A stretch of 64,000 nucleotides of DNA from an uncultured Balneola sp. GTDB lineage: Bacteria; Bacteroidota; Rhodothermia; Balneolales; Balneolaceae. The position numbers were made by a program, and so were the translations under genes. Under the pieces are notes generated by a model. It was not told where the DNA came from. It saw only the letters and a list, made by a program, of their open reading frames with translations, and did no database searches. Position 1 is the first letter of the stretch; each line of letters opens with the position of its first letter. The DNA lies in assembly GCA_913058495.1 (NCBI GenBank), contig CAJXQC010000005.1:62001-126000 (forward strand), given 5' to 3'. Shown piece after piece: positions 44,614 to 61,635 of this stretch.

Positions 44614-44646
44614 GTTTATAAATTTTGTGATTTAGTGTTTCTGTGG
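44590..44646. repeat. CACTAAAT-type palindrome reaching into the SSS gene end
   Basis: The left arm from GCCAC at 44590 (with CACTAAATCAGAAAAACACT) is inverted at about 44629-44646 (TTTAGTGTTTCTGTGGC). The right arm includes the stop and last codons of the SSS transporter gene, encoding its WPQKH end. Related arms are at 29042-29153. Confidence 0.65.
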
Positions 44647-46362
44647 CCAAACCAAACTAACCCCAACCCCAACCACTACCACAACAAAAGCGCCCAGCGG
44701 GTTTAGCCACAAAAACTCAATGGCTTTGGAATATCCTTCCGGAGTTTGGATCCATGGGAAAAAGAAAGAATAGTCAGCAGTAGTAGCATTGTAGAATAGT
44801 CGATCAAAAGTAAATACAGAGGCCATTCCCGAAAGAAGCCCGATCAATGCTCCGTTTCCATTCGCTTTCTTCACCCAAAGCAGGAGAATAAAAACGCCTA
44901 AAATAGAACCATAGAAATAGCTTCCAATCTGGTTGATCAGTTCAATGATAGAACGTGTTTCACCGAGAACGAGCGCTGAGCCTGTGGCGATGACTCCCCA
45001 TAATACAGTAACAGATCTGGAAGATTTAAGGAAATGTAATTCCCCAGGATCATCAGGACGGAGTCGTTTGTACCAGTCCACAATGGAAACCGTAGTAAGA
45101 GCATTCAATTCTGAATCAATGGAACTCATAGCTGCTGCAAAAATTCCGGCTACGATCAATCCTACCAGACCAATAGGAATATATTTCAAAATGAAATAAG
45201 GGAAGATGTAATTTGTGTCGTTTACATCCGTCTGACGAATTTCTGCTTGAAGCGCCAGTTCTTTTTGTCGGGCGGTATTCAGATCAACATCTGCTTTCAA
45301 GAATGCCTGCTGAGAAATCATGTCTCGATTTCTAGCAGCTTCAACTGCTAATCTTTGTCGATTTTCTCGAGCTTCTAAATATTGTTGTTCTATGATCTGT
45401 TCTCTGTTCAGTTGCTCTTCAGTTTGGGCAACAGGATCGGTGGAGCGGAAAGAGATTGGGGCATCATTAAAGATAAAGAATACATACAACATCACACCCA
45501 GCAACAGAATAAAGAACTGCATGGGTACTTTAGCATAGGCCGAAAGCAATAGGGATTTCTTGGCTTCTTTTGTATCAGAAGTGGTTAAATATCGCTGAAC
45601 CTGAGTTTGATCCGTGCCAAAATAGGAAAGCATCAAAAACAAAGCTGCAAAAACACCACTCCACACATTGTACTTTTCGCTTAGATCAAAATTCAGGTCG
45701 AGGGCGGTTAATTTATCCAGGCTTCCGGCAAGATAGAGAGCGTCACCAAAGCCAACATCTTCAGGAAGATTTACCATCACCACAAAAAAGCAGAATACGA
45801 GACCGAACATCATTACAGCCATTTGCTTTACATCTGTTTGGATCACTCCGGCAACTCCTCCGTACATGGTGTAAAGAGTGGCGATCAATCCAATAATGAG
45901 AATTGTAGCGGTAAGCGGAAGCCCTAAAAGCAAAGCCAGTACATAACTTGGAGCTGCAATTACAGCTCCCAAAGCTAATCCTCGGGAGATCAAAAATAAT
46001 CCGCTTGTGGTAAGTCGTGTTTTTAATCCAAATCGTTCTTCTAAAACTTCATAAGCGGTAAAGGCTTTCATCCTGCTGAAGAAAGGAACCAAAAACATAC
46101 ATATCAGGATCATCGCAAAGGGAATAGCTAAATAAACCTGTACAAATCGCATGTCTTCTACATAGGCAATTCCGGTAGTTCCGATAAAAGTGATGGCGGA
46201 AGCTTGTGTTGCCATGATCGAAAGACCCGCTGCCCACCAGGGCATATTTCGTCCGGCAAGTAAAAACCCTTCGATGTTTTCAGCATCTTTACCACGACGG
46301 GTTCCATCCCAAATCGTATACAATAAAAAAAGTGAGAGTACTGCCCAGTCTATCCAATGCAT
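44632..46362 (-). CDS. sodium:solute symporter (SSS family) with charged insertion
   Basis: A 576-residue SSS-type transporter. The first 300 residues show the family pattern: AGRNMPWWAAGLSIMATQAS, then SRGLALGAVIAAPSY and YGGVAGVIQTDVKQM. Residues about 305-382 are an unusual hydrophilic coiled-coil insertion (QTEEQLNREQIIEQQYLEAR followed by Ala-Glu-rich repeats) between membrane segments. The C-terminal half continues with IFAAAMSSIDSELNALTTV, the sodium-site region, and four or more further helices. The solute is unknown; sugars, amino acids and sialic acid are all carried by relatives. The gene is convergent with the desaturase-family gene and precedes nagB divergently. Confidence 0.92.
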   Translation of the reverse strand: MHWIDWAVLSLFLLYTIWDGTRRGKDAENIEGFLLAGRNMPWWAAGLSIMATQASAITFIGTTGIAYVEDMRFVQVYLAIPFAMILICMFLVPFFSRMKAFTAYEVLEERFGLKTRLTTSGLFLISRGLALGAVIAAPSYVLALLLGLPLTATILIIGLIATLYTMYGGVAGVIQTDVKQMAVMMFGLVFCFFVVMVNLPEDVGFGDALYLAGSLDKLTALDLNFDLSEKYNVWSGVFAALFLMLSYFGTDQTQVQRYLTTSDTKEAKKSLLLSAYAKVPMQFFILLLGVMLYVFFIFNDAPISFRSTDPVAQTEEQLNREQIIEQQYLEARENRQRLAVEAARNRDMISQQAFLKADVDLNTARQKELALQAEIRQTDVNDTNYIFPYFILKYIPIGLVGLIVAGIFAAAMSSIDSELNALTTVSIVDWYKRLRPDDPGELHFLKSSRSVTVLWGVIATGSALVLGETRSIIELINQIGSYFYGSILGVFILLLWVKKANGNGALIGLLSGMASVFTFDRLFYNATTADYSFFFPWIQTPEGYSKAIEFLWLNPLGAFVVVVVGVGVSLVWPQKH

Positions 46363-46546: not shown

Positions 46547-47326
46547 ATGGAAGTACTTGTATTTGAAAATAAAGAATCCGGTTCTTTATATGCTGCTCAG
46601 GTTATTGCAAATAAAGTGTTGATGAACAATTCTGTAAATGAAGAAACTGTACTTGGATTGGCAACAGGGTCAACACCGACTGATATGTATAAAGCGTTGA
46701 TAGAAATTAATAAAAGTGGCGTCAGCTTCAGCAGAATTATTACATACAATCTTGATGAATACTATCCAATGAAAAAATCGTCACCTCATAGTTATCATTA
46801 TTATATGTACGATCATTTTTTTCAGCATGTTGATATACATGAAGAAAATATCTTTATACCAAATGGTGAAAACAAAAATGAGGATCTCTCAAAGTTTTGT
46901 GAAGAATATGAACTATCTATAAGGAGAAATGGAGGAATAGATATTCAGGTTTTAGGCCTTGGATTAAATGGTCATATCGGATTTAATGAACCCGGTTTTA
47001 GTATGGATTCATTAACTCAGAAAGTAACCCTTAGTGATACTACCCGAACAGCTGCAGTGAAGTATTTCGGAAAAAAAGAAGAAGTGCCTTTTCAAGCTAT
47101 TTCTATGGGAATAAGTACGATTCTGAGTGCAGACCATATAATGATGATGGCCTGGGGAAATGAAAAAGCAGAAATTGTAAAGGAAAGCATTGAAGGACAG
47201 TTAAGCAAAGATGTTCCCGGTACCTATTTACAAACACATAAAAATGTAACGATAATTCTTGATGCAGAATCGGCTTCTAAGCTAGACAATGACAGAATTT
47301 CACTAATAGAAAGTAAGTTATCATAA
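46547..47326 (+). CDS. nagB: glucosamine-6-phosphate deaminase
   Basis: Converts glucosamine 6-phosphate to fructose 6-phosphate and ammonia. The start at ATG 46547 gives 259 residues beginning MEVLVFENKESGSLYAAQVI, which lines up with the normal NagB start; the frame is open further upstream (TTG 46496) and a 17-residue leader cannot be excluded. Active-site blocks are present: LATGSTPTDMY, YNLDEYYPM with the proton-transfer aspartate, and GLGLNGHIGFNEPG with the histidine. No nagA is nearby, which is notable. The PIG-L deacetylase follows 18 bases later, so both are probably one transcript. Confidence 0.95.
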   Translation: MEVLVFENKESGSLYAAQVIANKVLMNNSVNEETVLGLATGSTPTDMYKALIEINKSGVSFSRIITYNLDEYYPMKKSSPHSYHYYMYDHFFQHVDIHEENIFIPNGENKNEDLSKFCEEYELSIRRNGGIDIQVLGLGLNGHIGFNEPGFSMDSLTQKVTLSDTTRTAAVKYFGKKEEVPFQAISMGISTILSADHIMMMAWGNEKAEIVKESIEGQLSKDVPGTYLQTHKNVTIILDAESASKLDNDRISLIESKLS

Positions 47327-47344
47327 ACCAAATCACGGAGTAAT

Positions 47345-48211
47345 ATGAAAAAAATAAAATCAATCATTTTAACTGCATGCATGATTATGCCTGTTGTTTT
47401 GATGGCTCAACCGGAAACACCAATCGAGGAGTGGACAGGAAGAACTGTTTTGTTTATCGGGGCTCATCCTGATGACGATGGAGGTTCTCACGGAACAATG
47501 GCAATGTTGCAGGCAAACGGAAACGAAGTATATGTAATGCTTTTAACAACAGGTAATGTTGGAACCGGTGATCCTACAATGACACGCGATCGCTTATCAA
47601 AAATTCGACGCCAGGAAGAAGTAGACGCTTTAAAAGAACTTGGTATACCTGAAGAAAACTACATCAATTTAGGTTATACAGATGGAATGGTTGAGTTTGC
47701 CGACAAAGAAGAAGTGGTAAAGCAAATTGTATGGTGGATCAGAAAATTAAAGCCAACAACAATGATGGCTTTTGATCCGGGATATGGATATCAGCAATGG
47801 CATAAAGCAGATCACAGAGCAGCGGCCTACTTAGCAGTTGATGCAGCAAGAGCAGCAGAATGGAGACTGATTTTTCCCAGTCAGATCATAAATGAAGGTC
47901 TTGAGCGTCATAGCGTTACAGATTATCTGTTTTACAGTACTACCGCCAATGCATCTAACACAACTGTAGATATTTCTGAATATGCCGAGAACAAGGTGCA
48001 GTCGCTGTCTAAATATATTAGTCAGTTTACTTCTGCATTTGATAATTATGTCGGTCCAAATATATCTGACCTGCCCGGTAATGAAGGCAAGGAATTTATG
48101 GACAGACTAAGAAGAAGAGTATTCGAACGTGGAGCTGTAGATGGAAAGCCTACTGAAAGCTTCAGATATTATAAAGGCGCTCCGGATGGAGCCGGCTCAA
48201 GAAGAGATTGA
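47345..48211 (+). CDS. secreted PIG-L family deacetylase
   Basis: A zinc-dependent N-deacetylase of the PIG-L/LmbE (CE14) fold. The 288-residue protein has a signal peptide (MKKIKSIILTACMIMPVVLM, cleaved near AQPE). The zinc motif GAHPDDDGGSHGTM is followed by TMTRDRLSKIRRQEEVDAL and the third-ligand region WHKADHRAAAYLAV. Relatives remove acetyl from N-acetylglucosamine in GPI precursors, mycothiol, bacillithiol or chitobiose. Export implies an extracellular or periplasmic substrate. Adjacency to nagB suggests that it makes free glucosamine units for that pathway. A likely terminator follows at 48240-48272. Confidence 0.9.
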   Translation: MKKIKSIILTACMIMPVVLMAQPETPIEEWTGRTVLFIGAHPDDDGGSHGTMAMLQANGNEVYVMLLTTGNVGTGDPTMTRDRLSKIRRQEEVDALKELGIPEENYINLGYTDGMVEFADKEEVVKQIVWWIRKLKPTTMMAFDPGYGYQQWHKADHRAAAYLAVDAARAAEWRLIFPSQIINEGLERHSVTDYLFYSTTANASNTTVDISEYAENKVQSLSKYISQFTSAFDNYVGPNISDLPGNEGKEFMDRLRRRVFERGAVDGKPTESFRYYKGAPDGAGSRRD

Positions 48212-48239
48212 GTAAATTTTTTCTGAGGTTAATTTTCTA

Positions 48240-48272
48240 AAGTAAGCAATAACCTTGTGTTGTTGCTTACTT
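48240..48272 (+). terminator. probable terminator after the PIG-L gene
   Basis: AAGTAAGCAA (48240-48249) pairs with TTGCTTACTT (48263-48272), followed by CCTTT. The tail is short, so it may be weak. Confidence 0.55.
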
Positions 48273-48413
48273 CCTTTAAGGAACTTCTCATAAATTCAGG
48301 TTTCAATTTCACGAATATTTGACTAATTAATTAGAATGACATCAGTTGACTTGTGGGTGAAATAATAAATTAGTTGACGATAATTAAATAGGAAGGACTA
48401 GCTACAAATAAGC

Positions 48414-49013
48414 ATGTTACTATTGGCAATTTTAGCAAATAGTAAAGGAGATAACCGATCCAGTGATTTAAGTCGGGTGGAAAGAATACGTAAAGGAGAC
48501 AAAAAAGCATTTGAAGCTTTATTCTTTGAGTACCATGAGCAGTTAAGCAGGTTTGCAAATTCTATTACAAAATCCAGAGAGTTTGCCAGGGATGCTGTTC
48601 AGGATGTATTTCTGAAAGTCTGGAGAAACAGAAAAGAACTAGATATAAAAGTATCGGTAAAAGTTTATTTGTATCAGGCTGTCAGAAACCAGTCATTAAA
48701 TTTACTAAGTAAGCAGAAAAATCAGCAGCGATTAAGAGAGGATTTCCTGAGTGAAGTCAAAAGTATTCGTAGCGAGGAATATGTAGAAGTCGCTTCGAAC
48801 AATGAGCATCTGGAATTAATAAAAAGGGTGTGGGAAGTTGTTAGTCAAATGCCGGAAAGAAGAAGGTTAGTTTTTGAATTGCACAGAAAGCATGGTTTCA
48901 GTTATAAAGAAATTGCAAGGATTCTTGAAATAACAAGAAAGACGGTAGAAAATCATATGTCTCAAGCGTTGCAATACCTCCGAGACAATATTGAAATAAA
49001 TAAATTAAAATAA
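48414..49013 (+). CDS. ECF-type RNA polymerase sigma factor
   Basis: A 199-residue group IV sigma factor of the Bacteroidota FecI-like set. Region 2 is AFEALFFEYHEQLSRFANSI and AVQDVFLKVWRNRKEL; region 4 is VVSQMPERRRLVFELHRKHG and SYKEIARILEITRKTVENHM, with the helix-turn-helix. It has the usual arrangement upstream of a FecR anti-sigma and an STN-type SusC, so it likely transcribes the SusC/SusD operon when the receptor detects its substrate. The ATG at 48414 gives a short extra N-terminus (MLLLAILANSKGDNRSSD). The gap to FecR is 51 bases. Confidence 0.95.
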   Translation: MLLLAILANSKGDNRSSDLSRVERIRKGDKKAFEALFFEYHEQLSRFANSITKSREFARDAVQDVFLKVWRNRKELDIKVSVKVYLYQAVRNQSLNLLSKQKNQQRLREDFLSEVKSIRSEEYVEVASNNEHLELIKRVWEVVSQMPERRRLVFELHRKHGFSYKEIARILEITRKTVENHMSQALQYLRDNIEINKLK

Positions 49014-49064
49014 TTATAGGGGTATTGGTTTTTGCCTCTGTCTAATAATAAACAAACTTAAAAA

Positions 49065-50126
49065 GTGAAGTCAGAATTGGATATAAGCCTTTTAGCAAAA
49101 TTTTTAGCTGAAGAATGTGATAACAAAGAAAAACAGTTAGTGTCTGACTGGTTATCTGAAAGTTCAAAGAACCGTGAAACAATGAAGGAATTTGAAAAAA
49201 TATGGGAAGCTTCTGAGCATTCCGATTCCTCCGAAGATGTTTTTGACAGCAACTTAGAATGGGTTGTATTGCAGAATAGAATTGAAGATGAAACTTTGAA
49301 CTTTAATACTAAGCATGTAAATCGCAGCACCTGGTTGTCTTTATATAATCCTCTTTTACCAACATTAAGTAAAGTTGCTGCTTTATTTCTAATAGCAGCT
49401 TTCGTGGGTCTGTTCTTTATTGATCGTTTTTATGTTGAAGAAGTACAGCCTCAGGAGCCAACGCTTAACGAGATTTCAATGGAGAAGGGGTATCGCGGAG
49501 GAGTAACTCTTTCTGATGGGACAAAAGTATATATAAACTCCGACAGCAAAATTATTATTCCGAAAGTTTTCAAAGCAGATAGAAGAGAAGTTTTCTTAGA
49601 AGGTGAAGCGTTTTTTGATGTAGCTAAAAATCCTAACAAGCCATTTCTTATCAAAACAAAAGGAGCTGTTGTGGAAGTTCTGGGGACTTCCTTTGCCGTT
49701 CGTAATTATCCCGGAGATAATGTAATTCAGACAGTAGTTAGAGAAGGAACGGTTTCTTTTAGTTCAGATGATAAATCAAAGAAGAATAGTGTGATTCTTA
49801 CTGCCGGGAATCTGGGAAGGTTGAACCTGGAAAACAATGAGATTAAAACAGAGTATGTCAGTGATGTTGATTTCTACCTTAGTTGGAAAGAAGGGTATTT
49901 GACCTTTAAGAACGAAAAGATGAAGGAAGTCGCAAAACAACTAGAAAGAAAGTATGACATCGAAGTTGTTTTTGATTCAAAAGAAATTGCAGACATGAAT
50001 TTAACAGCAGAATTAAGAAGCAGATCATTAGCAAGGGTTTTGGAAACAATATCTATGTCATTAAAGATCGATTATACTCTGCTTAAAGATCGAGTAAGTT
50101 TTGAGTTATCTGATAGCTCAGATTAA
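49065..50126 (+). CDS. FecR-family anti-sigma factor
   Basis: A 353-residue membrane regulator that holds the ECF sigma factor until signalled by its TonB receptor. The cytoplasmic N-terminus (LLAKFLAEECDNKEKQLVSDW) is the sigma-binding part, and one transmembrane helix lies near residue 110-125 (VAALFLIAAFVGLFFI). The periplasmic FecR domain has KGYRGGVTLSDGTKVYINSD, EVFLEGEAFFDVAKNPNKPF and VEVLGTSFAVRNYPGD. A C-terminal STN-like/secretin domain (FKNEKMKEVAKQLERKYDIE) closes it. The start is a GTG at 49065. It lies between the sigma gene and the frameshifted SusC gene. Confidence 0.94.
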   Translation: MKSELDISLLAKFLAEECDNKEKQLVSDWLSESSKNRETMKEFEKIWEASEHSDSSEDVFDSNLEWVVLQNRIEDETLNFNTKHVNRSTWLSLYNPLLPTLSKVAALFLIAAFVGLFFIDRFYVEEVQPQEPTLNEISMEKGYRGGVTLSDGTKVYINSDSKIIIPKVFKADRREVFLEGEAFFDVAKNPNKPFLIKTKGAVVEVLGTSFAVRNYPGDNVIQTVVREGTVSFSSDDKSKKNSVILTAGNLGRLNLENNEIKTEYVSDVDFYLSWKEGYLTFKNEKMKEVAKQLERKYDIEVVFDSKEIADMNLTAELRSRSLARVLETISMSLKIDYTLLKDRVSFELSDSSD

Positions 50127-50212
50127 TAATCAGTTTTAAATAAAAATATTCTGGAAGCGCTTTTTTTTCGCGAGTTCAAAATATCAATATTAACAAGTTA
50201 CAGAGGAAACGT

Positions 50213-53200
50213 ATGAGACCATTAGTTAATAAAATGATACGGGTTACTTCTTGCTATTGTCTAATTGGAGTATTTTTGCTTCAGTTCGGGAATCCATCAA
50301 ATGTAAGAGCTCAGTTAATAGCTTCTTCATCAAATAGCATTCAAGCAAATAGTTATTATCCTGTTCATATATACAAAAACAGTATACCTGAGCTACAGAG
50401 CTTAATTTCTATTGACAAAGACAATGCTTTGCTAAAAGATGTGCTAAAAGAAATAGCAAAGAAAACCAAGCTTGGTATCGCTTATAATTCAGATCTTCAG
50501 GTTCTTGATAAAAAGGTCTCGGTTAAATTTGATAAAACCAGAGCTGCAGAAATTCTGGAATATGTTCTTATCGGGACAGAATATGAAGCAGCAATATCAA
50601 ATACCCGTGAAATATTATTGATAAAAAGAAAGGCGCTTAATGATAAAAAAGTTCTTGAAATAGAAATTTCAGGTGTGGTAAGAGATGCTGACACCGGAGA
50701 GCTTTTGCCAACAGTAAGTGTGTTTGTAAAAGGAACCAGTATTGGTGTCACTTCAAATATAGACGGAGAGTTTGAAATAACCGTCCCTGATGACTCTGAA
50801 ATACTTGTATTCAGATTTGTAGGGTATAAGGAACTGGAGATTCCTATAACCGGAAACATGTCGAATTTGCAAATTGAAATGGAACCGGATTTACTGATCT
50901 TTGAAGATGTAGTTGTTGTAGGTTATGGTACTCAGCAAAGAGAAGAGGTTACAGGTTCAGTTGCTTCTATACGAACTGAAGTTCTTGAAAATATACCGGT
51001 TTCCAGTTTTGAAAATGCTTTACAGGGTAGACTGGCAGGAGTAAATGTAGTTGAACCTACAGGTGAGCCGGGCGCCAGTCCTGAAATTACCATTCGTGGA
51101 GGAGGCTCAATTACAGCAAGTAATGGACCTCTATATGTTATTGATGGAGTGCCGCTTTCACGAAACTCGGATTTGCAGGTAAACATCCAATCTCAAAGAG
51201 GTTCATTTCAGGCGCCAAAATCGAACGCATTCAGTTCATTGAATCCTAACGATATAGAATCTATAGATGTTTTAAAAGATGCTGCATCAGCCGCAATATA
51301 TGGATCCAGGGGATCAGGCGGTGTAATATTGGTAACTACCAAAAAAGGAACACCCGGTATAAACCGAGTAACAGTAAGTATGTACGGCGGGGGCTCATCA
51401 GTTGTAAATAAACCTGATATGATGAACGCTGAGGAATTAATTGCTTACACAAAGGATGCAAGAAATAACAATTATCTTCAGGAAATTGATCGGGGCAATC
51501 AACCGGCAAATCCAAACTATGATCCCAACACAAATGCTGGAAGGCCAGATGTTGCAAACTTTTTGATTCCTGAACAGTATGTAAATTGGAATGGAACAGA
51601 TACAGATTGGCTGGATGTGGTACTCAGCTCTTCTGCACAACAAAATTACCACGTATCAGCAAGCGGAGGTACGGACAAAGCTACTTACTTTCTTTCAGCA
51701 GGATATTTAGATCAGGAAGGGATCATTGATGGTTCATCATTTACCAGATATAATTTCAGAGCAAATGTCAGTTATGACATTTCGGATAAAGTTAAAGTAG
51801 GTTCAGTAACCAATGCCGCTCTTTCTAACCATGATCGTTTACCGGCTAATGCTCCTTATTTTGGGCAACCACCAGGGATTATTTATTCAGCATTGGTGCA
51901 CTCACCTGTTGTAGCTCCTTATAATCCAGATGGAACTATTAATCAATTAAATAATCAATCCTATCTAGGTGGAGGTACAACCACAGCGAGTAATCCATTG
52001 GCTATCCAAGAGTTTATTTCTGAAGAAATAAAAAATAACAGACTCTATGGTAATGTATATGGTACTGTTGATATAAATGAGAACATGACATTTAAGTCAC
52101 TGATAGGATATGATGTAGACGATTATCAGTCTTCATTTTATAGAGGAACGCAATTCTTATACAGAAACCAAACCACCCCTCAGCCATTTGCACAATCAAG
52201 TGGAGCAAATGGATTTAACTGGTTATGGGAAAACACAGTTAACTACCAAAAGACTTTTAAAGTAGATCATAAGGTTGGAGTTTTGGTAGGATATACTGCT
52301 CAAAAACAAACTAACGAAGTAAATCTGGTTACAGCCAATGGTTTTGTAGATGATCAAATACCAAATATTGCCGGAGGTATCGTTACAGGTGGAGGAGTAA
52401 ATGAATCTGAATGGACTTTAGCTTCTATGTTAGCTCGCCTAAATTATGGTTATAAAGGAAAATATCTGGGAACATTTACAATCAGATCAGACAGGGCCTC
52501 AAGATTCGGTTCTGATAACCAGACAGGTATATTTCCATGGTTGGAGGTTAACAGAGGAATCGTTTATGGAATCTATGGACGCATTCAATGAACTTAAGTT
52601 AAGAGCCAGTTATGGGGTAGCAGGTAATTTTGAGATAGGAAACTATAATTCAATCAGTTTGCTGAATAGTGTGAATTATCCTGAGAACGGAGTTTTATTT
52701 CCAGGATCTTCACTAGCTACTTTAGGTGATAGCGAATTAACATGGGAAACCAGTTATCAATCAAACTTAGGAGTTGATTATGCTTTACTGAATGACAGGA
52801 TTTATGGTAGTATTGATTATTACTTTACTATCACAAAAGATTTGCTATTATCAGTTCCTGTACCCCCATCAACCGGGTTTGATCAAGTTTTAACAAATGT
52901 TGGAGAAGTTGAAAATGAAGGTTTTGAATTTTCAATAACATCAAGAAATTTGGTTAATGATTTTCAATGGTCAACCGATTTTAATTTTTCTACCAATAGA
53001 AATACTGTTAATAAGTTGGGACCTTCTGGAAATGCAATTTTACCATCGGGTGCTGCCGGAGTAAGACATATTACACAAGTCGGATCTGCTGTAGGTAGTT
53101 ACTACGGATATTTGGTAGATCGTATTTATCAAAATCAGGCAGAAATTGATGCGGACAATAATAGTGCTCCTGGTGGAGATTATGACCTGCTTGCTGCGGA

Positions 53201-53798
53201 CCCAAGACCGGGTGACTTCAGGTTTAAAGATGTGAATGGTGACGGAGTAGTGAATGCTGATGACCGTACTGTTTTAGGAAGTTATCAGCCGGACTTCATT
53301 TACGGAATCTCAAACAGATTTAACTACAGAAACTTTGATCTGAAAATATTTATTCAGGGGGTAGTAGGTAGGGAAGTGTTGAATTTAACAGCACGTCACT
53401 TGCTAAACGGTGAAGCAAATTTCAATTCTTATGCTGTGCTGAATGACAGATGGATTTCTGAAAGTGACCCCGGAAACGGAAAGTATCCGCGTGCAGACAG
53501 AAGCACCGGAACACACGGAAATAATAACAGGGCGTCATCATATCAGGTTCAGGATGGTAGCTATGTTAGCTTAAAGAATATTCAGATCGGATATAATTTG
53601 CCGGTAGAAAAGCTGAATAATATTGCGAGGAAGGCAAGAATTTATATTTCTGCAACAAACTTAGCGATTTTTACAGATTACATAGGATTTAATCCTGAAG
53701 TAAACTTGCAGTCATCAAGCAGTCTAACACCTGGTGAGGATTACGGTGCATATCCGCTTGCCAGAACAGTTCAACTTGGTATCAACCTTGAATTTTAA
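50213..53798 (+). pseudogene. STN-type SusC/RagA TonB-linked receptor, frameshifted
   Basis: A SusC receptor of about 1194 residues if read through. It has a signal peptide (to NVRAQ), an STN domain (DNALLKDVLKEIAKKTKLGI, about 65-135) for signalling to FecR, a carboxypeptidase-like domain (VRDADTGELLPTVS), and a plug (FEDVVVVGYGTQQREEVTGS; LNPNDIESIDVLKDAASAAI). Then comes the barrel. The frame breaks at 52538-52541: frame A reads GIFP at 52526-52537 then runs to a stop at 52591, while frame B resumes at WRLTEESFM from 52542. Compared with the usual FPSVALGWRL spacing, only 4 bases remain where about 15 are expected, as if 11 were deleted. It could also be a sequencing error. SusD follows intact. 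Confidence 0.85.
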
Positions 53799-53823
53799 AA
53801 GCATACTTATAACAGGAGACATT

Positions 53824-55194
53824 ATGAAGAAACTAATATTAACACTGTTCATTCCGCTTTTATTTATTTCATGCGGAGATGATTTTACAAACCTGGGACC
53901 TCTTACAGAGAGAAACGTCAACAATTTTTACAAAAATGAAACGGATTTCCAGCTGGCAATTCGAGGTGCTTTGGATGGACTGCAAAGCAGGGAAACATTT
54001 GGAGTAAACTTTGTTTTGTTTATGGAGATGAGGGCCGATAATGGTGCCAACGGCGGTGGAGCAACCGGCCTGGCTGCAAGTCTGGAGCAACTGGATACTT
54101 TTACTGATTTACCATCGGGTGAAGAGATATCGGCAACGTATAACGCAGTATATAAGGTTATTGCAGGAACCAATAATATTATTGCAAGAATAGACGATGC
54201 CAGCTTTGATAATGAAACAGTTCGGGATCAGATTAAAGGAGAAGCATACTTTATCAGATCGTTACTTTACTACCATATGGCAGTAATATTCGGAAATGTG
54301 CCGCTGCAACTAGAAGAGGTCACCTCCCCTGATGTTGAAGTAAATCAGGTAAGTGCAACAGCAATATATGATCAAATCGCGATTGATCTTGCTATGGCTG
54401 AAGATCTTTTACCTGAAACCGGAAGAATCACAAAGTGGGCTGCCGCTTCTTTATTAGGAAGAGTGCATCTTTCCAACGGCAATAACTCTGCCGCAGTTGC
54501 TCCTCTTCAAAGAGTGGTGGATTCAATGCAGTTTGAACTGGTTCCCGACTATTCTAATCTGTGGGGCGCTGCAAATGAAGGTAACATAGAATCTATTTTT
54601 GAAATAGAATATATAACCGGCAATGTTGGAGAAGGCAGTTCTTATACAGATAACTACACACCTCTTGGTTTTGGTGGTGTTGGTGGAGGTGGAGCACCTC
54701 AAAATGTAACAGATGATATTATCGGAGCTTATGAAGCCGGAGATGAAAGATTTGATGCTACTATTGATACAACAGATCCGGCTAATCCCTGGGTAAGAAA
54801 GTTTATCAGTAACCCAACTGTATCTTCCGATGGCGATAATAATTGGATGGAACTTCGTTATGCTGAGGTTTTATTGAATCTTGCAGAAGCTTTAGGTGAA
54901 TCTGATGCTGCATATGACCTTATTGACGAAGTCAGAGATCGTGCGGATTTAGGGGGCGTTGATCGGACACCGGCAGGAGGTACTTTCGAAGAAAAACTAC
55001 TTCAGGAAAGAAGAGTTGAATTTGCTTTTGAAAATAAGCGATGGGCTGATCTTAAAAGATTTGATGCAGCTAAATCTGTGATGTCGGCTCATTTAGGAAT
55101 CCCTGAAGCCCAGGTTACTTTATTGTTTCCAATACCTCAGGCAGCAATTGATGCGTCTCCGGATGATATGACGCAAAACCCAGAACATCAGTAA
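53824..55194 (+). CDS. SusD/RagB family outer membrane lipoprotein
   Basis: The partner of the frameshifted SusC, 456 residues. ATG at 53824 is chosen because AGGAG lies 6-7 bases before it and it starts a lipoprotein signal, MKKLILTLFIPLLFISCGDD, with cysteine 17; the longer frame upstream is in the SusC gene. The body has the usual helical layout: YFIRSLLYYHMAVIFGNVPL, WAAASLLGRVHLSNG, and near the C-terminus ELRYAEVLLNLAEALGES and LLQERRVEFAFENKRWADL. The ligand is unknown but is predicted to be the same glycan the locus targets. A strong terminator follows at 55206-55238. Confidence 0.95.
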   Translation: MKKLILTLFIPLLFISCGDDFTNLGPLTERNVNNFYKNETDFQLAIRGALDGLQSRETFGVNFVLFMEMRADNGANGGGATGLAASLEQLDTFTDLPSGEEISATYNAVYKVIAGTNNIIARIDDASFDNETVRDQIKGEAYFIRSLLYYHMAVIFGNVPLQLEEVTSPDVEVNQVSATAIYDQIAIDLAMAEDLLPETGRITKWAAASLLGRVHLSNGNNSAAVAPLQRVVDSMQFELVPDYSNLWGAANEGNIESIFEIEYITGNVGEGSSYTDNYTPLGFGGVGGGGAPQNVTDDIIGAYEAGDERFDATIDTTDPANPWVRKFISNPTVSSDGDNNWMELRYAEVLLNLAEALGESDAAYDLIDEVRDRADLGGVDRTPAGGTFEEKLLQERRVEFAFENKRWADLKRFDAAKSVMSAHLGIPEAQVTLLFPIPQAAIDASPDDMTQNPEHQ

Positions 55195-55205
55195 AGTGTA
55201 GCTTT

Positions 55206-55243
55206 ATAAGCCGGAGTCTGCATTTGTCTCCGGCTTATTTTTA
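55206..55243 (+). terminator. Rho-independent terminator after the second SusD gene
   Basis: ATAAGCCGGAG (55206-55216) pairs with CTCCGGCTTAT (55228-55238), followed by TTTTTATTATTT. It separates the receptor genes from the transport and kinase operon. Confidence 0.9.
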
Positions 55244-55323
55244 TTATTTGGGATATAAATCTCAATCGACGTGTTGGAATATCCTTTTCAGTAAAGACTT
55301 ATTTAACCTTTTAGAATCACATT

Positions 55324-56568
55324 ATGGAACGCAATCGTTATTTAGTTGGGCTTATTGTATTAACATTTTTTGTTATATCGTTTTTGACAAATATAATCGG
55401 GCCTTTAGTTCCTCAAATTATTGAGGACTTCGATTTAAGTCTTACTTTGGTTGCCGTACTTCCGTTTGCTTTCTTTATAGCATATGGAGTAATGTCGATT
55501 CCATCAGGAATATTGATTGAAAAATATGGTGAGAAAAAAGTCATGATTTTGGCTTTTCTGATCGCTTTTTCCGGTGCCTTATTATTTGCTGTGTTCCCGC
55601 AATATATTGTAGCGGTATTGTCACTGTTTTTTATCGGGTCCGGGATGGCAATGTTGCAGGTTGCAATAAATCCATTATTAAGAGTTTCGGGAGGCGAAGA
55701 AAATTTTGCTTTTAACTCTGTTATGGCTCAGCTTTTCTTTGGACTGGCATCCTTTTTAAGCCCGTTAGTGTATTCCTATCTGGTATTGAATATCGGGACA
55801 GATGATATGGGTTTCTTCTTATCAATACTGTCAGACTTAGTTCCACCAGAACTTCCCTGGATCTCTTTGTATTTGATTTTTGCATTGGTTTCTATCCTGA
55901 TGGTGATTGTAATTATTCTGTCCAAGTTTCCTGAAGTACTTAAAAACGAAGACGAAAAAGTTGGAGCTTTAGAAACACATCTGGAAATGCTGAAGAACAA
56001 AAAAGTAATATTGTTCTTTTTGGGAATATTCGCATATGTAGGTGCAGAACAAGGCGTTGCAAACTGGATCTCGGAATTTTTGTCTTCATATCACGGATAT
56101 GATCCACAAACGACAGGTGCAACTACGGTTTCATGGTTTTGGGGAATGATGACAGCAGGTACCGTGCTGGGACTGTTTTTATTAAAGATCATGGACAGTA
56201 AGAAAATTCTGGTGGGCTTCACTTCAATGGTACTTCTTTGTTTGGCTACAGCATTATTTGGTAGTGGAGAAATTGCACTCTACGCATTTCCCGCGATCGG
56301 TTTCTTTATTGCTGTTATGTGGCCAATTATTTTTTCACTTGCACTCAACTCTGTTGAGGAACATCATGGAACCTTCTCCGGGATTTTAGTAACAGGAATT
56401 GCAGGGGGTGCTGTTGTGCCGCTTATTGTTGGTTCTATTGGTGATATGTTCGGGTTGAGAGTAGGTATGTTATTTTTATTTATCGCTTTTGGATACATAC
56501 TAAGTATTGGTTTTTGGGCTAAACCTCTGGTAAATAATAAAACCATCGATTTTGCCGGTAAAGAATAA
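55324..56568 (+). CDS. FucP-like sugar transporter of the major facilitator superfamily
   Basis: A 414-residue membrane transporter of the FucP/FGHS sugar-proton symporter subfamily. About 12 helices are seen. IPSGILIEKYGEKKVMIL is the family's loop 2-3 motif, GSGMAMLQVAINPLLRVSGG and AQLFFGLASFLSPLVYSYL match FucP-like proteins of Bacteroidota, and YVGAEQGVANWISEFL is the seventh-helix signature. It should import a monosaccharide across the inner membrane by proton symport. It is the first gene of an operon with a ROK kinase (32-base gap), so the sugar is probably phosphorylated right after entry. Confidence 0.92.
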   Translation: MERNRYLVGLIVLTFFVISFLTNIIGPLVPQIIEDFDLSLTLVAVLPFAFFIAYGVMSIPSGILIEKYGEKKVMILAFLIAFSGALLFAVFPQYIVAVLSLFFIGSGMAMLQVAINPLLRVSGGEENFAFNSVMAQLFFGLASFLSPLVYSYLVLNIGTDDMGFFLSILSDLVPPELPWISLYLIFALVSILMVIVIILSKFPEVLKNEDEKVGALETHLEMLKNKKVILFFLGIFAYVGAEQGVANWISEFLSSYHGYDPQTTGATTVSWFWGMMTAGTVLGLFLLKIMDSKKILVGFTSMVLLCLATALFGSGEIALYAFPAIGFFIAVMWPIIFSLALNSVEEHHGTFSGILVTGIAGGAVVPLIVGSIGDMFGLRVGMLFLFIAFGYILSIGFWAKPLVNNKTIDFAGKE

Positions 56569-56600
56569 CATCAATTAGAAATAAAAGAGAGAGGAGAGTC

Positions 56601-57461
56601 TTGAGCACGGGAACTCTTATAGGAATTGATTTAGGTGGTACGAATGTAAGAGCAGCTTGTATTCTTGATGATGAGATTGAAGAAATGATTTCAGAACCTA
56701 TCTCTGGGAAAGAAAATGCTGAATTACTGATTAATCAGATTAAAGAGATGATTTCAAATTTATGGAACTCAAATATTGAAGCAATCGGAATAGGAGTTCC
56801 AAGTGTAGTGGATGTAGAAAAAGGGATTGTCTATGATGTTCAGAATATTCCTTCATGGAAAGAGGTTCCCCTTAAAGAAATTCTGGAAGAAGAATTTGGC
56901 AAACCGGTTTTCATTAACAATGATGCTAATTGTTTTACACTCGGCGAAAAATACTTTGGCGAAGCGAAAAACTATAAATCTATTGTGGGCTTGATTTTGG
57001 GTACGGGCTTTGGTTCCGGATTAATACTTAACAATATCTTGTATTCCGGGAATAACTGCGGAGCAGGAGAAGTGGGAATGCTTCCTTATAAAGATTCAAT
57101 ATTTGAGCACTATTGTTCAGGACAGTTTTTTGAGATTCATAAAAATACAACTGGACAAGAGCTTTTTAACAGAGCCCAAAAAGGAGACAGAGAGGCTATG
57201 GAAGCTTATAATGAATTTGGTGCACACCTCGGAAATGCAGTGAAAGTGATTATGTATGCATATGATCCGGAGGTGATAGTTCTGGGCGGAAGCGTTTCAA
57301 AAGCTTTTTCTTTTTTTCAAGAAAGTATGTTCAAGGCTATGGAAGATTTTGCCTATCCAAACTCCATCAGAAATTTAAAAATTAAAACTACAGAACGGAA
57401 ATCGGTCGCGGTATTAGGGGCAGCAGCGCTTGTATTAGACCATCAGTTTCTAAATAACTAG
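56601..57461 (+). CDS. ROK-family sugar kinase
   Basis: A 286-residue ROK kinase. LIGIDLGGTNVRAACI is the ATP phosphate-binding start, FINNDANCFTLGEKYFG contains the catalytic aspartate, and ILGTGFGSGLIL the second phosphate loop. The usual ROK zinc motif (ExGH then CxCGxxGCxE) is absent: the glutamate is in GAGEVGML, where the His is Met, and the Cys-rich segment is replaced by EHYCSGQFFEIHK. The TTG start at 56601 is supported by a ribosome site GAGAGGAGAG just before it. It lies in the transporter operon. Candidate substrates are glucosamine, N-acetylglucosamine or glucose; the neighbouring nagB favours an amino sugar. Confidence 0.9.
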   Translation: MSTGTLIGIDLGGTNVRAACILDDEIEEMISEPISGKENAELLINQIKEMISNLWNSNIEAIGIGVPSVVDVEKGIVYDVQNIPSWKEVPLKEILEEEFGKPVFINNDANCFTLGEKYFGEAKNYKSIVGLILGTGFGSGLILNNILYSGNNCGAGEVGMLPYKDSIFEHYCSGQFFEIHKNTTGQELFNRAQKGDREAMEAYNEFGAHLGNAVKVIMYAYDPEVIVLGGSVSKAFSFFQESMFKAMEDFAYPNSIRNLKIKTTERKSVAVLGAAALVLDHQFLNN

Positions 57462-57468
57462 GAATGTC

Positions 57469-60156
57469 ATGAAATCATCATTATTAAAATTAAGCGGTAA
57501 AAGATTTCTATTTGTGGGAGTTGTTCTAGCCTTTTTGAGCTGTACAATGCCATCCGATTCAACTTTGATCCCTATAACTGTAGAAAATAATACACCGGGA
57601 ACGCCTCAGCTTTTTGGAGTCCCTGTTCCTGAAGGCGATTTGTATTCTCCTGACCGTGTAAGAGTGTTAGACAACAATGGAAATGAAGTTCCTTCTCAAA
57701 TCACTAAAGTTACGACATGGGAACCTTCTGATAACAGTATAAAGTGGCTTTGGGTGTTCTTTTTTACAGAAGAGGGAAATGAATACAGCGTTGAGTATGG
57801 AAATGAAATAAGAAATGCCCGGGATTATGATCAGAAATTAGTAATACGGAATAACCAAAGACAGAATGGTGAGGTTGAAATAAACACAGGCCCTCTCAGG
57901 TTTGTAGTAAATAAAGGTGAAGGTGGCGGGTTTCAAAATTCTCCGGCAGGCAGTGGTTTTCTTGATAAGGTAGAACTGGATATTGATGGAGATGGATTTA
58001 CAGATGATGATATCATAGCAATGGGAGAAGCTGGAAGAAGTTCTTTTCTGGATCTTCTTGACGATGCAGGAATAGACAAGTCAAAAGCGGTAGTACTGAA
58101 AACAGTAAAAGAGTTAGGAACAGGTCCGTTGCATGCCATTATCCGTATTGAAGGAGAATATGAATACAAGCGTGGTGACAACAATAAAGCTCCTTTTACA
58201 ACCAGAATTCATGCTTATGCCGGTAAGAGCTATATAAAAGTTCAACATACATTTGTATACACCGGAGAACCCGATCAGCATAAGAAACAAGAAGGAGAGT
58301 ATGAAGCCATTGCAACCGAAAACGGTAAAATAATTGATGAATCTATACTTAGGAAAGATGCCGGATTCACAAAACCAAATGACAGAATTGAAGCTACCGG
58401 TTTATCTCTGAAATATAATATGGATGAATCAAGGACGGTAACCTCAGCTTACTATGACGGTAAATGGTGGGATACTTCAACAAGCACAGTAGTTCAAAGT
58501 CCTTTATCTGATTTTGCATCAGTTCTGCAAACAGGACCGAACACATCTCAAATTCCGGAACTTAAAAATTCATCTCCCGAGGAAAGAATGGAGAATGAAT
58601 TCAGTTCAACGATAAATGTTGACGGCACTACTGATATGAAGAAAGAAAGATCGCCGGGATGGTTAGATATTTCAGACAACAAGTGGGGAGTTACTGTTAG
58701 TTTTCAAAGCTTCTTTGAAGAATATCCGAAAGAGATTGCAGTAGATGGAAATAACAATAAAGTAACAGCCTACATCTGGACACCGTCTGTAGACCCTATG
58801 AGTTTTGCAAGAAAAGACAGCGATAATGATAGCGGTATGATCGCCAATTTTGCTCAAGGTCTGGCTAAAACAACAGAGATGGTATTTAACTTCCATAAGA
58901 AAAGTGCAGTCGAAGATATTTCAAAAGATGTACAACGCTTTATGGACTCACCGGTAACTCACGCTTCTCCGGAATGGTATGCTGAAAGTGAAGCATTTGG
59001 TAAAATGACAGAGAGCCTTGATAAGTACGCTGCATATGAAAGAGGTATAGATTATAAGTTGAACTGGATGCAGTTCAATCAACAGTGGGAACCTTGGTTC
59101 GGTATGCTTAACTACGGTGATAACCTGACCTATTTTTATGGGTATGAGTGGTTTCAGTGGACAAATAATGAGCCTGGGAATGATTATATGTGGTGGTTAC
59201 AGTTTATGAGAACAGGAAACCCCATGTATTATAAAACAGCAAAAGCAGCGAGTGCACACACAATGGATGTTGATAATATTCATTGGCCTAAGGATCCGGT
59301 TTATTTTGGAGATACAAATGAATCGTTGCACGCTTTTCAAAATGAGGACCTTCCTGAAGGATCGCCTTATGTAGGTATGGGACGGAGGCACGCATCACAG
59401 CACTATACATCACTATTGAGTGCACATGTATGGGTTCCCGGATGGACTACTTCATACTATTTAGATGGCAACCACAGAGGTCTTGAAGTAGCTAAACAGA
59501 CAGGAGATTATTACATGAAAAGGGTTTTTGGTGATCACGGATTAAGAGGAAGAAGACTGTATCTGTCTGTGTGGAACTTAGCTGAGATCTACGACGCAAC
59601 AAAGTCAGAGAAATACTATAAAGAACTGGAAGACCGGGTAAACTTAATGCTTGAATTACAAAAACATCCTGATCAGGGAGGAGAGTTGGTAATTAACCGA
59701 TACGGATATGCTCAGGTTTACGCTAGTAATGGTTTACGTAAATACTATCAGTTCACCGGTAGTCAGGAAGTAAAAGACGCAGTAGTAGATCATGCAAGAA
59801 CTCTCAGAGATGTCCCTCCACTTAATCATGACATGGAATCATACCTATCTTCAATAAGCAGCTTGGTTTTAGGATATGAATATTCCGGTGAAAAGAGTTT
59901 ACTTGATGAAGCAGTTAGCCGGGCCCGATATTTAAAAACCGAAGAACTGGTCCAGGATTTTAATTCATATCAAAATCAAAAGATCCTGGCAGATGCTTTG
60001 GAAGAAGCAAGTAATTTCCCAAAAGACCCGGGAGCAAGAAGGCCTCCTATCTGGCAGATAACTAACGGTTTAAGAGTTTTTGGCTGGACAAGTATTTATA
60101 ATGTACCTTATCTGGAATATTGGATGGAAAAAGAAAACTATCCTGCAGAAAAGTAA
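57469..60156 (+). CDS. PcRGLX/YetA-like lipoprotein, probable polysaccharide lyase or glycan hydrolase
   Basis: An 895-residue exported protein. A lipoprotein signal has lipobox LAFLSC (near residue 25). The first domain (about 35-150; TPGTPQLFGVPVPEGDLYSP) looks like the RIFT-barrel domain of PcRGLX/YetA-like proteins. A beta-rich central domain follows, then a C-terminal alpha/alpha-toroid (about 490-895) with WYAESEAFG, GWTTSYYLDGNHRG and ISSLVLGYEYSG. PcRGLX is an exo-rhamnogalacturonan lyase, but most relatives are uncharacterised, so activity on pectin is not assured. It lies 7 bases after the ROK kinase. The surface location fits a role in degrading or trimming the glycan before uptake. 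Family call from pattern, moderately sure. Confidence 0.75.
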   Translation: MKSSLLKLSGKRFLFVGVVLAFLSCTMPSDSTLIPITVENNTPGTPQLFGVPVPEGDLYSPDRVRVLDNNGNEVPSQITKVTTWEPSDNSIKWLWVFFFTEEGNEYSVEYGNEIRNARDYDQKLVIRNNQRQNGEVEINTGPLRFVVNKGEGGGFQNSPAGSGFLDKVELDIDGDGFTDDDIIAMGEAGRSSFLDLLDDAGIDKSKAVVLKTVKELGTGPLHAIIRIEGEYEYKRGDNNKAPFTTRIHAYAGKSYIKVQHTFVYTGEPDQHKKQEGEYEAIATENGKIIDESILRKDAGFTKPNDRIEATGLSLKYNMDESRTVTSAYYDGKWWDTSTSTVVQSPLSDFASVLQTGPNTSQIPELKNSSPEERMENEFSSTINVDGTTDMKKERSPGWLDISDNKWGVTVSFQSFFEEYPKEIAVDGNNNKVTAYIWTPSVDPMSFARKDSDNDSGMIANFAQGLAKTTEMVFNFHKKSAVEDISKDVQRFMDSPVTHASPEWYAESEAFGKMTESLDKYAAYERGIDYKLNWMQFNQQWEPWFGMLNYGDNLTYFYGYEWFQWTNNEPGNDYMWWLQFMRTGNPMYYKTAKAASAHTMDVDNIHWPKDPVYFGDTNESLHAFQNEDLPEGSPYVGMGRRHASQHYTSLLSAHVWVPGWTTSYYLDGNHRGLEVAKQTGDYYMKRVFGDHGLRGRRLYLSVWNLAEIYDATKSEKYYKELEDRVNLMLELQKHPDQGGELVINRYGYAQVYASNGLRKYYQFTGSQEVKDAVVDHARTLRDVPPLNHDMESYLSSISSLVLGYEYSGEKSLLDEAVSRARYLKTEELVQDFNSYQNQKILADALEEASNFPKDPGARRPPIWQITNGLRVFGWTSIYNVPYLEYWMEKENYPAEK

Positions 60157-60174
60157 CTTTAGCAATATAATTTT

Positions 60175-61635
60175 ATGCAAGATTTAGGGAAAAGAGCAGG
60201 CTTAATTGGTGGGATACTGGTATTTGTGATCCTCCTTTTTTTACCTGTTCCGGAAGGACTTTCTGATGCTGCCTGGAAAACAGCTGCAGTTACTATTCTA
60301 ATGGGTATTTGGTGGATAACGGAAGCTATCCCAATTTCTGCAACAGCACTGCTGCCTATTGTACTTTTTCCTGTTCTGGGTGTATTCAGTATTGGGGATG
60401 CAACAGGCCCTTATGCAAACCCGCTTATCTTTTTATTTATGGGAGGGTTCGTTATTGCACTGGCGATGGAGAAGTGGAATCTGCATAAACGAATAGCGAT
60501 TTCTATTGTAAATTATGTAGGGATCAAACCATCTTCAATTATTATTGGATTTATTATCGCATCCGCTTTTTTGAGTATGTGGGTAAGTAATACGGCAACG
60601 GCAATTATGATGCTCCCCATTGCTATGTCAATTTTGGAGTTGCTGGACAAGAACGATAAATCTGCTAAGATCAACTTCGAGATCGTTTTAGTTCTTACTA
60701 TTGCTTACGCTTGCAATATTGGAGGTATGGGAACTTTGATTGGGACACCTCCAAATGCATTATTGGCTGGATTCGTACTTGAAAACTATAATATAGAAAT
60801 CAGTTTTTTGGATTGGATGATGGTAGGTGTGCCGATCATGCTTGTATCACTGCCACTGATGTACTTTATACTTACAAAATTTGTTTATCCGATTAAGATC
60901 AAAGAATTGCCCGGCGGGAAAGAACTAATTCAATCCCAAATGGAGAAGCTTGGTAATATTTCCAATCAGGAAAAGAAAGTAGCCGTAGTGTTTGTTTCCG
61001 CTGCATTGTTGTGGATGTTCAGGCCGTTGCTGTCCTCGGTAATACCTGGCTTGTCGGATGCTGGAATTGCGATCGGCGCAGCCGTTGCCTTTTTTATGAT
61101 CCCTGCAAATTCAGAAGAGAACCGATTTTTGCTTAAATGGTCTGATACAAAACGATTGCCATGGGGAGTGTTAATTCTTTTTGGTGGAGGGTTGAGTATG
61201 GCATCAGCTATAAGTAGTACCGGACTGGCAACATGGATTGGTTCGGGAATTGGAAGTCTGAATACCTGGCCGATCATTTTGATCATTTTAATTGTAATTG
61301 CGCTGATCGTATTCCTGACAGAAATGACAAGTAATACCGCATCTACAGCGGCATTTTTGCCAATTTTAGCTTCCGTTGCTATTGGATTGGGTGAAAATCC
61401 ATTTTTACTGGCGATCCCAACGGTATTGGGTGCAAGCTGTGCTTTCATGCTTCCGGTTGCTACACCCCCGAATGCAATTGTTTACGGAAGTGGAAAAATA
61501 AGTATTCCTGAAATGTCTAAAGCAGGATTATGGCTCAATCTTATGTTTATACTACTGCTTACTCTCGCCTCTTTAACACTGGTAAGTTGGGTATTTGGAA
61601 TTGAAATAGGTGTTTTACCCGAGTGGGTTAAATAA
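60175..61635 (+). CDS. DASS (SLC13) family sodium-coupled anion transporter
   Basis: A 486-residue membrane protein of the divalent anion:sodium symporter family. Two Ser-Asn-Thr motifs that bind sodium and carboxylate are visible, MWVSNTATAIM and EMTSNTASTAAF, along with IGTPPNALLAG and CAFMLPVATPPNAIVYG. About 11-12 helices. Members carry succinate, malate, citrate or sulfate. Its place as last gene of an operon with sugar import and a glycan-active lipoprotein suggests uptake of a carboxylate produced from the glycan, or excretion of an end product. It ends one base before the convergent small membrane-protein gene. Confidence 0.94.
   Translation: MQDLGKRAGLIGGILVFVILLFLPVPEGLSDAAWKTAAVTILMGIWWITEAIPISATALLPIVLFPVLGVFSIGDATGPYANPLIFLFMGGFVIALAMEKWNLHKRIAISIVNYVGIKPSSIIIGFIIASAFLSMWVSNTATAIMMLPIAMSILELLDKNDKSAKINFEIVLVLTIAYACNIGGMGTLIGTPPNALLAGFVLENYNIEISFLDWMMVGVPIMLVSLPLMYFILTKFVYPIKIKELPGGKELIQSQMEKLGNISNQEKKVAVVFVSAALLWMFRPLLSSVIPGLSDAGIAIGAAVAFFMIPANSEENRFLLKWSDTKRLPWGVLILFGGGLSMASAISSTGLATWIGSGIGSLNTWPIILIILIVIALIVFLTEMTSNTASTAAFLPILASVAIGLGENPFLLAIPTVLGASCAFMLPVATPPNAIVYGSGKISIPEMSKAGLWLNLMFILLLTLASLTLVSWVFGIEIGVLPEWVK

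Follow-up and report, generated by a model that had tools for sequence, protein, structure and literature searches.

A conserved SusCD cassette in Balneola with a PL26-like lipoprotein and secreted PIG-L deacetylases, possibly for an amino sugar–acid substrate

How might a bacterium that carries nagB and lacks nagA remove the acetyl group of an amino sugar? The question is raised by a locus of a marine Balneola-type bacterium (genome 99.4% complete), in which nagB and a gene for a secreted PIG-L protein stand beside genes for a SusC/SusD system, a sugar permease, a kinase, a PcRGLX-like lipoprotein and a dicarboxylate transporter. The first-pass annotation of the window (the whole 64,000-nt stretch of DNA analysed) had proposed, by analogy with chitin-degrading archaea, that the sugar is deacetylated outside the cytoplasm, imported, phosphorylated by the ROK kinase and deaminated by NagB; it assigned no role to the PcRGLX-like lipoprotein or the dicarboxylate transporter. 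New relative to that annotation are a frameshift in susC, a full NagB–PIG-L fusion encoded elsewhere in the genome, and a second PIG-L of the cassette in relatives.

Gene content of the locus

Profile searches confirmed the gene identities and positions of the first-pass annotation, with ten genes from nagB to the DASS symporter all on one strand (Table 1). A gap of 18 bp separates nagB from PIG-L1, the N terminus of which resembles a signal peptide. The MFS permease scored under every equivalog cut-off (TIGR01272, TIGR00885 and NagP); as first noted, it shares one operon with the ROK kinase, an arrangement that is conserved among relatives. The locus has the SusC/SusD pair, the dedicated degrading enzyme (predicted) and the regulator that define a PUL, with susC frameshifted in this copy. 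The window susC lies in two overlapping ORFs because 11 bases are missing relative to a close relative; in other relatives the gene is a single ORF of about 1198 aa. The break may reflect a locus that is impaired in this strain or an assembly error, and it counts against the function proposed below. A divergent sodium:solute symporter gene (44632–46362) adjoins nagB and keeps this position in several congeners. The count of promoter-like sites was not above that of shuffled sequence.

Table 1. Genes of the locus. Coordinates are positions in the 64,000-nt stretch of uncultured Balneola sp. contig CAJXQC010000005.1 (GCA_913058495.1), + strand.
Gene or product	Position	Strand	Basis
nagB, single-domain glucosamine-6-phosphate deaminase	46547..47326	+	TIGR00502 274 bits vs cut-off 237
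PIG-L1, secreted PIG-L/CE14-type N-deacetylase (predicted)	47345..48211	+	PF02585 90 bits
ECF sigma factor	48414..49013	+	TIGR02985 above cut-off; kept in cassette
FecR-type anti-sigma factor	49065..50126	+	PF04773 + PF16344
SusC-type TonB-dependent transporter	50213..53798	+	two overlapping ORFs, frame broken near 52.5 kb
SusD-type surface lipoprotein	about 53824..55194	+	PF07980 + PF14322
FucP/GluP/NagP-type MFS sugar permease	55324..56568	+	TIGR01272 156 bits, TIGR00885 107, NagP 96
ROK sugar kinase	56601..57461	+	PF00480 178 bits
PcRGLX-like (PL26-fold) lipoprotein, probable extracytoplasmic lyase	57469..60156	+	Pfam PcRGLX domains
DASS-family sodium:dicarboxylate (anion) symporter	60175..61635	+	TIGR00785 323 bits vs cut-off 199

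Conservation across lineages

Orthologues of the PcRGLX-like protein were found in 28 of 92 family (Balneolaceae) genomes at 46–96% identity. A search of named genomes yielded 131 relatives, and the 80 loci retained from these span Balneola, Gracilimonas, Flagellimonas, Maribacter, Pedobacter, Chitinophaga-type MAGs, KSB1, Acidobacteria and Gemmatimonadota-like MAGs. Gene content was counted at the 56 of these loci with near-full flanks, which encode SusC (52), SusD (51), a ROK kinase (49), an MFS permease (49), a second secreted PIG-L, PIG-L2 (46), and either DASS or DctA (38; DASS in 32 and DctA in 6); the two carriers never occur together in any of the 80 loci. Balneolaceae, other Bacteroidota and KSB1 all have cassettes with a core set of sigma/FecR, SusC/SusD, secreted PIG-L, FucP-like permease, ROK kinase, PcRGLX-like lipoprotein and dicarboxylate transporter, to which several lineages add NagB or a NagB–PIG-L fusion; the grouping of these genes is not due to chance. 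The window and its closest congeners keep PIG-L1 in the locus, without PIG-L2. The cassette is apparently undescribed so far and common to Bacteroidota and a few other phyla; literature searches, with most subscription papers outside their coverage, returned nothing on point on PcRGLX, on glucosaminyl-malate catabolism or on the function of NagB/PIG-L fusions.

NagB stands beside the PcRGLX-like gene in Balneolaceae (alone or fused), KSB1 and Flavobacteriales, which supports the amino-sugar route first suggested for the window. In one KSB1 locus (L128), a single operon carries NagB alone, both PIG-Ls and DASS, and a NagB-like gene scoring under the cut-off occurs in Gemmatimonadota-like loci. 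Three observations count against this route: NagB adjoins the cassette in only 11 of the 80 named loci (a count limited by flank length), a group of relatives with small genomes has no nagB at the locus, and in one congener (L044) nagB is absent from between PIG-L and the symporter, with the remaining cassette intact. Balneola, Gracilimonas-type and KSB1 genomes have a single-domain NagB in the locus, whereas in other Balneolaceae and some Flavobacteriales the in-locus protein is fused to PIG-L. In a NagB tree the in-locus copies fall in several separate groups, suggesting, weakly given the long branches, that NagB was recruited to the cassette repeatedly; for the same reason, the tree does not settle whether in-locus NagB is a plain truncation of the fusion.

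Some cassettes carry additional genes. Four Pedobacter/Daejeonella loci (L117, L133, L136 and L140) encode an extra secreted PIG-L protein of approximately 830 aa adjoining the DctA-type carrier (that of L136 scored best on Mca), and L117 has two PcRGLX paralogues. Cytophagales cassettes (L116, L131 and L132) contain a gene resembling an FAD-dependent N-methyl amino acid oxidase, accompanied in L116 by a glyoxalase-like gene. In L153, L162 and L130 a further gene lies immediately downstream of PcRGLX, with a metallo-beta-lactamase fold in L162 and L130 (the two scanned).

The PL26-like lipoprotein

An AF2 model of the PcRGLX-like protein (pLDDT 86, pTM 0.90) could be superposed on PL26 structures along some 706 residues (VIA-align Z 30, rmsd 3.0, 16% identity; Foldseek E 1e-29) and contains the RIFT barrel, beta-sandwich and alpha/alpha toroid of PL26 architecture. 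Across 37 family members, Asp551, Glu568, Arg581, His597, Asp602 and Arg640 do not vary, and canonical PL26 paralogues have the same six residues at the aligned positions. The enzyme is assigned to a new subfamily of PL26 (rhamnogalacturonan exo-lyase), a distant relative of pectin lyases, and the modelled lipoprotein is probably an extracytoplasmic lyase. More distant PL26 paralogues within the same family (L068 and L069) appear among genes that, judged by eye from their sequences, resemble other glycan esterases and hydrolases. PL26 polysaccharide lyases cleave at the glycosidic linkage positioned beta to the carboxylate of a uronate; the substrate thus probably contains an amino sugar joined to an acid, and is probably not chitin. 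Chitin, the model behind the earlier proposal, was rejected: the genome has no GH20 (GH18 was outside the search), and the sole secreted glycan enzyme resembles PL26.

Site of deacetylation

Among solved structures, the best relatives of PIG-L1 are the Pyrococcus diacetylchitobiose deacetylases (E 1e-23), which are likewise nearest to PIG-L2. Pch-Dac has a His-Asp-His metal triad and a catalytic Asp (PMC9779004). The corresponding triad H41-D44-H157 and base D43 of PIG-L1 are invariant in 10 orthologues and align with Dac His40-Asp43-His151 and Asp42. For Dac His259*, contributed by the neighbouring subunit, the profile alignment ends before the region, and the C terminus of PIG-L1 has no obvious equivalent His. 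As PIG-L1 is secreted, closest to Dac enzymes and intact in its metal triad, the data favour deacetylation outside the cytoplasm, as originally proposed, although a NagB–PIG-L fusion encoded elsewhere in the genome could deacetylate within the cytoplasm.

The cassette PIG-Ls have the BshB/Bca bacillithiol enzymes as their best curated NCBIfam match (below cut-off), and these enzymes act on a GlcNAc-core substrate. BshB uses Arg109 in substrate binding (PMC4101496); its position is occupied by Trp in PIG-L1 (WHKADH) and Tyr in PIG-L2 (YHPDH), whereas a BshB-like protein of the window genome (L188) retains Arg (RHPDH). With this key residue missing from both, the cassette PIG-Ls were rejected as BshB (GlcNAc-malate deacetylase).

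A whole-genome search with TIGR00221 (cut-off 226 bits) found nothing above 33 bits, and nagA is thus absent from the entire genome as well as from the locus, where its absence had first been noted; together with the single-domain NagB of the window, this agrees with the first-pass proposal. Absence of nagA is, however, a family trait: nagA exceeds the cut-off in 4/92 family genomes and the NagB–PIG-L fusion (PRK02122) in 74/92, including the window genome, where a full-length copy (L066; G000:C4:78548-80452, 1075 bits) lies outside the locus. Because nagA is rare in the family and the fusion common, the absence, although real, is a weak argument and by itself no proof of extracellular deacetylation. 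Among 40 further cassette genomes, reached through the named loci, the fusion is above cut-off in 36, a NagB-type match of some kind is present in all 40, and nagA is present in only 13; the general presence of NagB and the scarcity of nagA favour the pathway proposed below, and the 13 genomes with nagA count against it. The PIG-L half of the fusion retains the SPHPDDD and HGTH metal-binding motifs and its nearest solved structures are diacetylchitobiose deacetylases, making it a credible candidate for a cytoplasmic NagA substitute. The fusions resemble the window genes in pairing a glucosamine-6-phosphate deaminase with PIG-L; in the window, however, the genes are separate and the PIG-L has a signal peptide. 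PIG-L1 was rejected as a split-off of the fusion: its lineage is secreted and distinct, and other cassettes contain both it and the fusion.

Considering the family-wide absence of nagA and the near-universal fusion, deacetylation could be cytoplasmic: the same cassette would import GlcNAc, ROK would yield GlcNAc-6-phosphate, the PIG-L half of the fusion would replace NagA and its NagB half would deaminate, and the secreted PIG-L would serve another step. The fusion occurs in 27 of the 28 cassette-bearing family genomes and lies within the cassette in many relatives, and its metal motifs and structural kinship agree with such a role. Against it, the in-locus NagB of the window lacks the PIG-L half, the association of secreted PIG-Ls with the cassette is closer than that of the fusion, and we know of no PIG-L protein that acts on a sugar phosphate. 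We consider this route unlikely, though less so than the alternatives below.

Kinase, carriers and the acidic product

The ROK kinase is without the zinc motif (ExGM instead of ExGH, no CxCG), and GAGE.GM is conserved across an alignment of 61 cassette ROK proteins. Its best solved matches are glucokinases, followed by NanK/NagK; the best score on glucokinases is a point against an amino-sugar pathway. In Pedobacter and Chitinophaga-type cassettes a DctA-type carrier replaces DASS (the L136 copy, the one scanned, is above the curated DctA cut-off). No KDPG aldolase was found in the window genome, nor in 16 of the 23 further Balneolaceae with a cassette that were tested. The replacement of DASS by DctA and the lack of KDPG aldolase in the window genome hint at a C4-dicarboxylate as the second product, and without this aldolase a uronate was rejected as second product in the window organism. 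A Gemmatimonadota-like locus (L175) conflicts with this pointer: its PcRGLX-like and NagB-like genes lie by those for D-mannonate oxidoreductase, UxuA, KDPG aldolase and KDG kinase, a glucuronate-to-KDPG neighbourhood that suggests a uronate as the acid. Parts of this set are also present in L178 and L181 (UxuA in L181). A PQQ dehydrogenase gene accompanies the PcRGLX-like and uronate genes in the Gemmatimonadota-like loci (L175, L176, L178 and L181), and L175 and L176 carry an Nramp-like carrier gene with the NagB-like gene.

Two alternatives turn on the identity of the acid. In a glycosaminoglycan-like exo-lyase system, the PL26-like enzyme would cleave an alternating hexosamine–uronate polymer. 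A fungal PL26 relative cuts alternating rhamnose and galacturonate, so an alternating uronate polymer has precedent as a PL26 substrate, and the Gemmatimonadota-like neighbourhoods fit. The Bacteroidota cassettes inspected, in contrast, have no adjoining uronate genes, no GH88/GH105 lies within the cassette and KDPG aldolase is missing as described above, which leaves this system rather improbable. Quite improbable, too, is scavenging of a bacillithiol-type glucosaminyl-malate, in which the PL26-fold enzyme would beta-eliminate the malate glycoside to fumarate and GlcN(Ac), DASS/DctA would import the C4 acid, the permease, ROK and NagB would use the sugar, and the PIG-Ls would remove the N-acyl group. 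The swap of unrelated carriers that never co-occur and a genome without KDPG aldolase for uronates fit this scheme, these phyla are expected to contain bacillithiol commonly (PMC6282198) and bshA is present in 83/92 family genomes; the cassette PIG-Ls, however, are missing the substrate-binding Arg of BshB, and SusCD would be unusual for so small a substrate. If true, a thiol that ranks among the most widespread in bacteria would gain its first route of catabolism.

Proposed function and relation to known systems

With middling confidence, we read the locus as a copy of a conserved SusCD cassette whose target would be a small glycan or glycoside containing an acid joined to an amino sugar, most probably N-acetylglucosamine. 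Directly observed are which genes are present and conserved, that nagA is absent, to which families the proteins belong, and that the metal ligands are retained and PL26 residues shared; from these we infer every substrate, the order of the steps and the site of deacetylation. SusCD, controlled by the ECF sigma factor and FecR, would bring the glycan across the outer membrane, and the PL26-fold lipoprotein would cleave the amino sugar–acid bond, probably through beta-elimination. The secreted PIG-L would strip the N-acetyl group ahead of cytoplasmic entry, with the amino sugar then entering through the FucP-like permease and the acidic fragment through DASS. ROK would then form glucosamine-6-phosphate, which NagB would convert to fructose-6-phosphate and ammonia. 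The core of the first-pass proposal, PIG-L deacetylation without NagA, is plausible and is strengthened by conservation in several lineages, whereas chitin is unlikely and the nagA argument carries little weight.

The proposed pathway shares with the archaeal chitin route (Pyrococcus Dac and the glucosaminidase GlmA) a PIG-L/CE14 enzyme with a His-Asp-His triad, a deacetylate-first order and a dispensable NagA; here, in contrast, the deacetylase is secreted and part of a SusCD system, the cleaving enzyme is PL26-like and the locus has no chitinase or GlmA partner. ROK kinase and NagB are shared with classical NagK–NagA–NagB catabolism of GlcNAc, but the genome has no NagA, and the family commonly has the NagB–PIG-L fusion instead. 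The likeness to the exo-rhamnogalacturonan lyase PcRGLX (5xq3) covers the whole multi-domain fold and several aligned conserved residues, but the neighbours here are PIG-L, ROK and NagB, and this neighbourhood argues against rhamnogalacturonan as the substrate. A locus for pectin (rhamnogalacturonan) or another neutral sugar, with nagB and PIG-L as mere neighbours, would draw on the remote kinship to PL26 and the setting of the more distant paralogues, but is very improbable given the low identity to PcRGLX, the recurrence of PIG-L and NagB with the cassette in several lineages and a cassette without rhamnose or uronate genes.

These results define a widely conserved, apparently uncharacterized cassette centred on PIG-L deacetylases and an enzyme representing a new subfamily of PL26, with an accompanying dicarboxylate transporter that suggests an unusual amino sugar–acid substrate. 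For nagA-less Bacteroidota and their relatives, they suggest that amino sugars may be handled through deacetylation outside the cell or through the near-universal NagB–PIG-L fusion.
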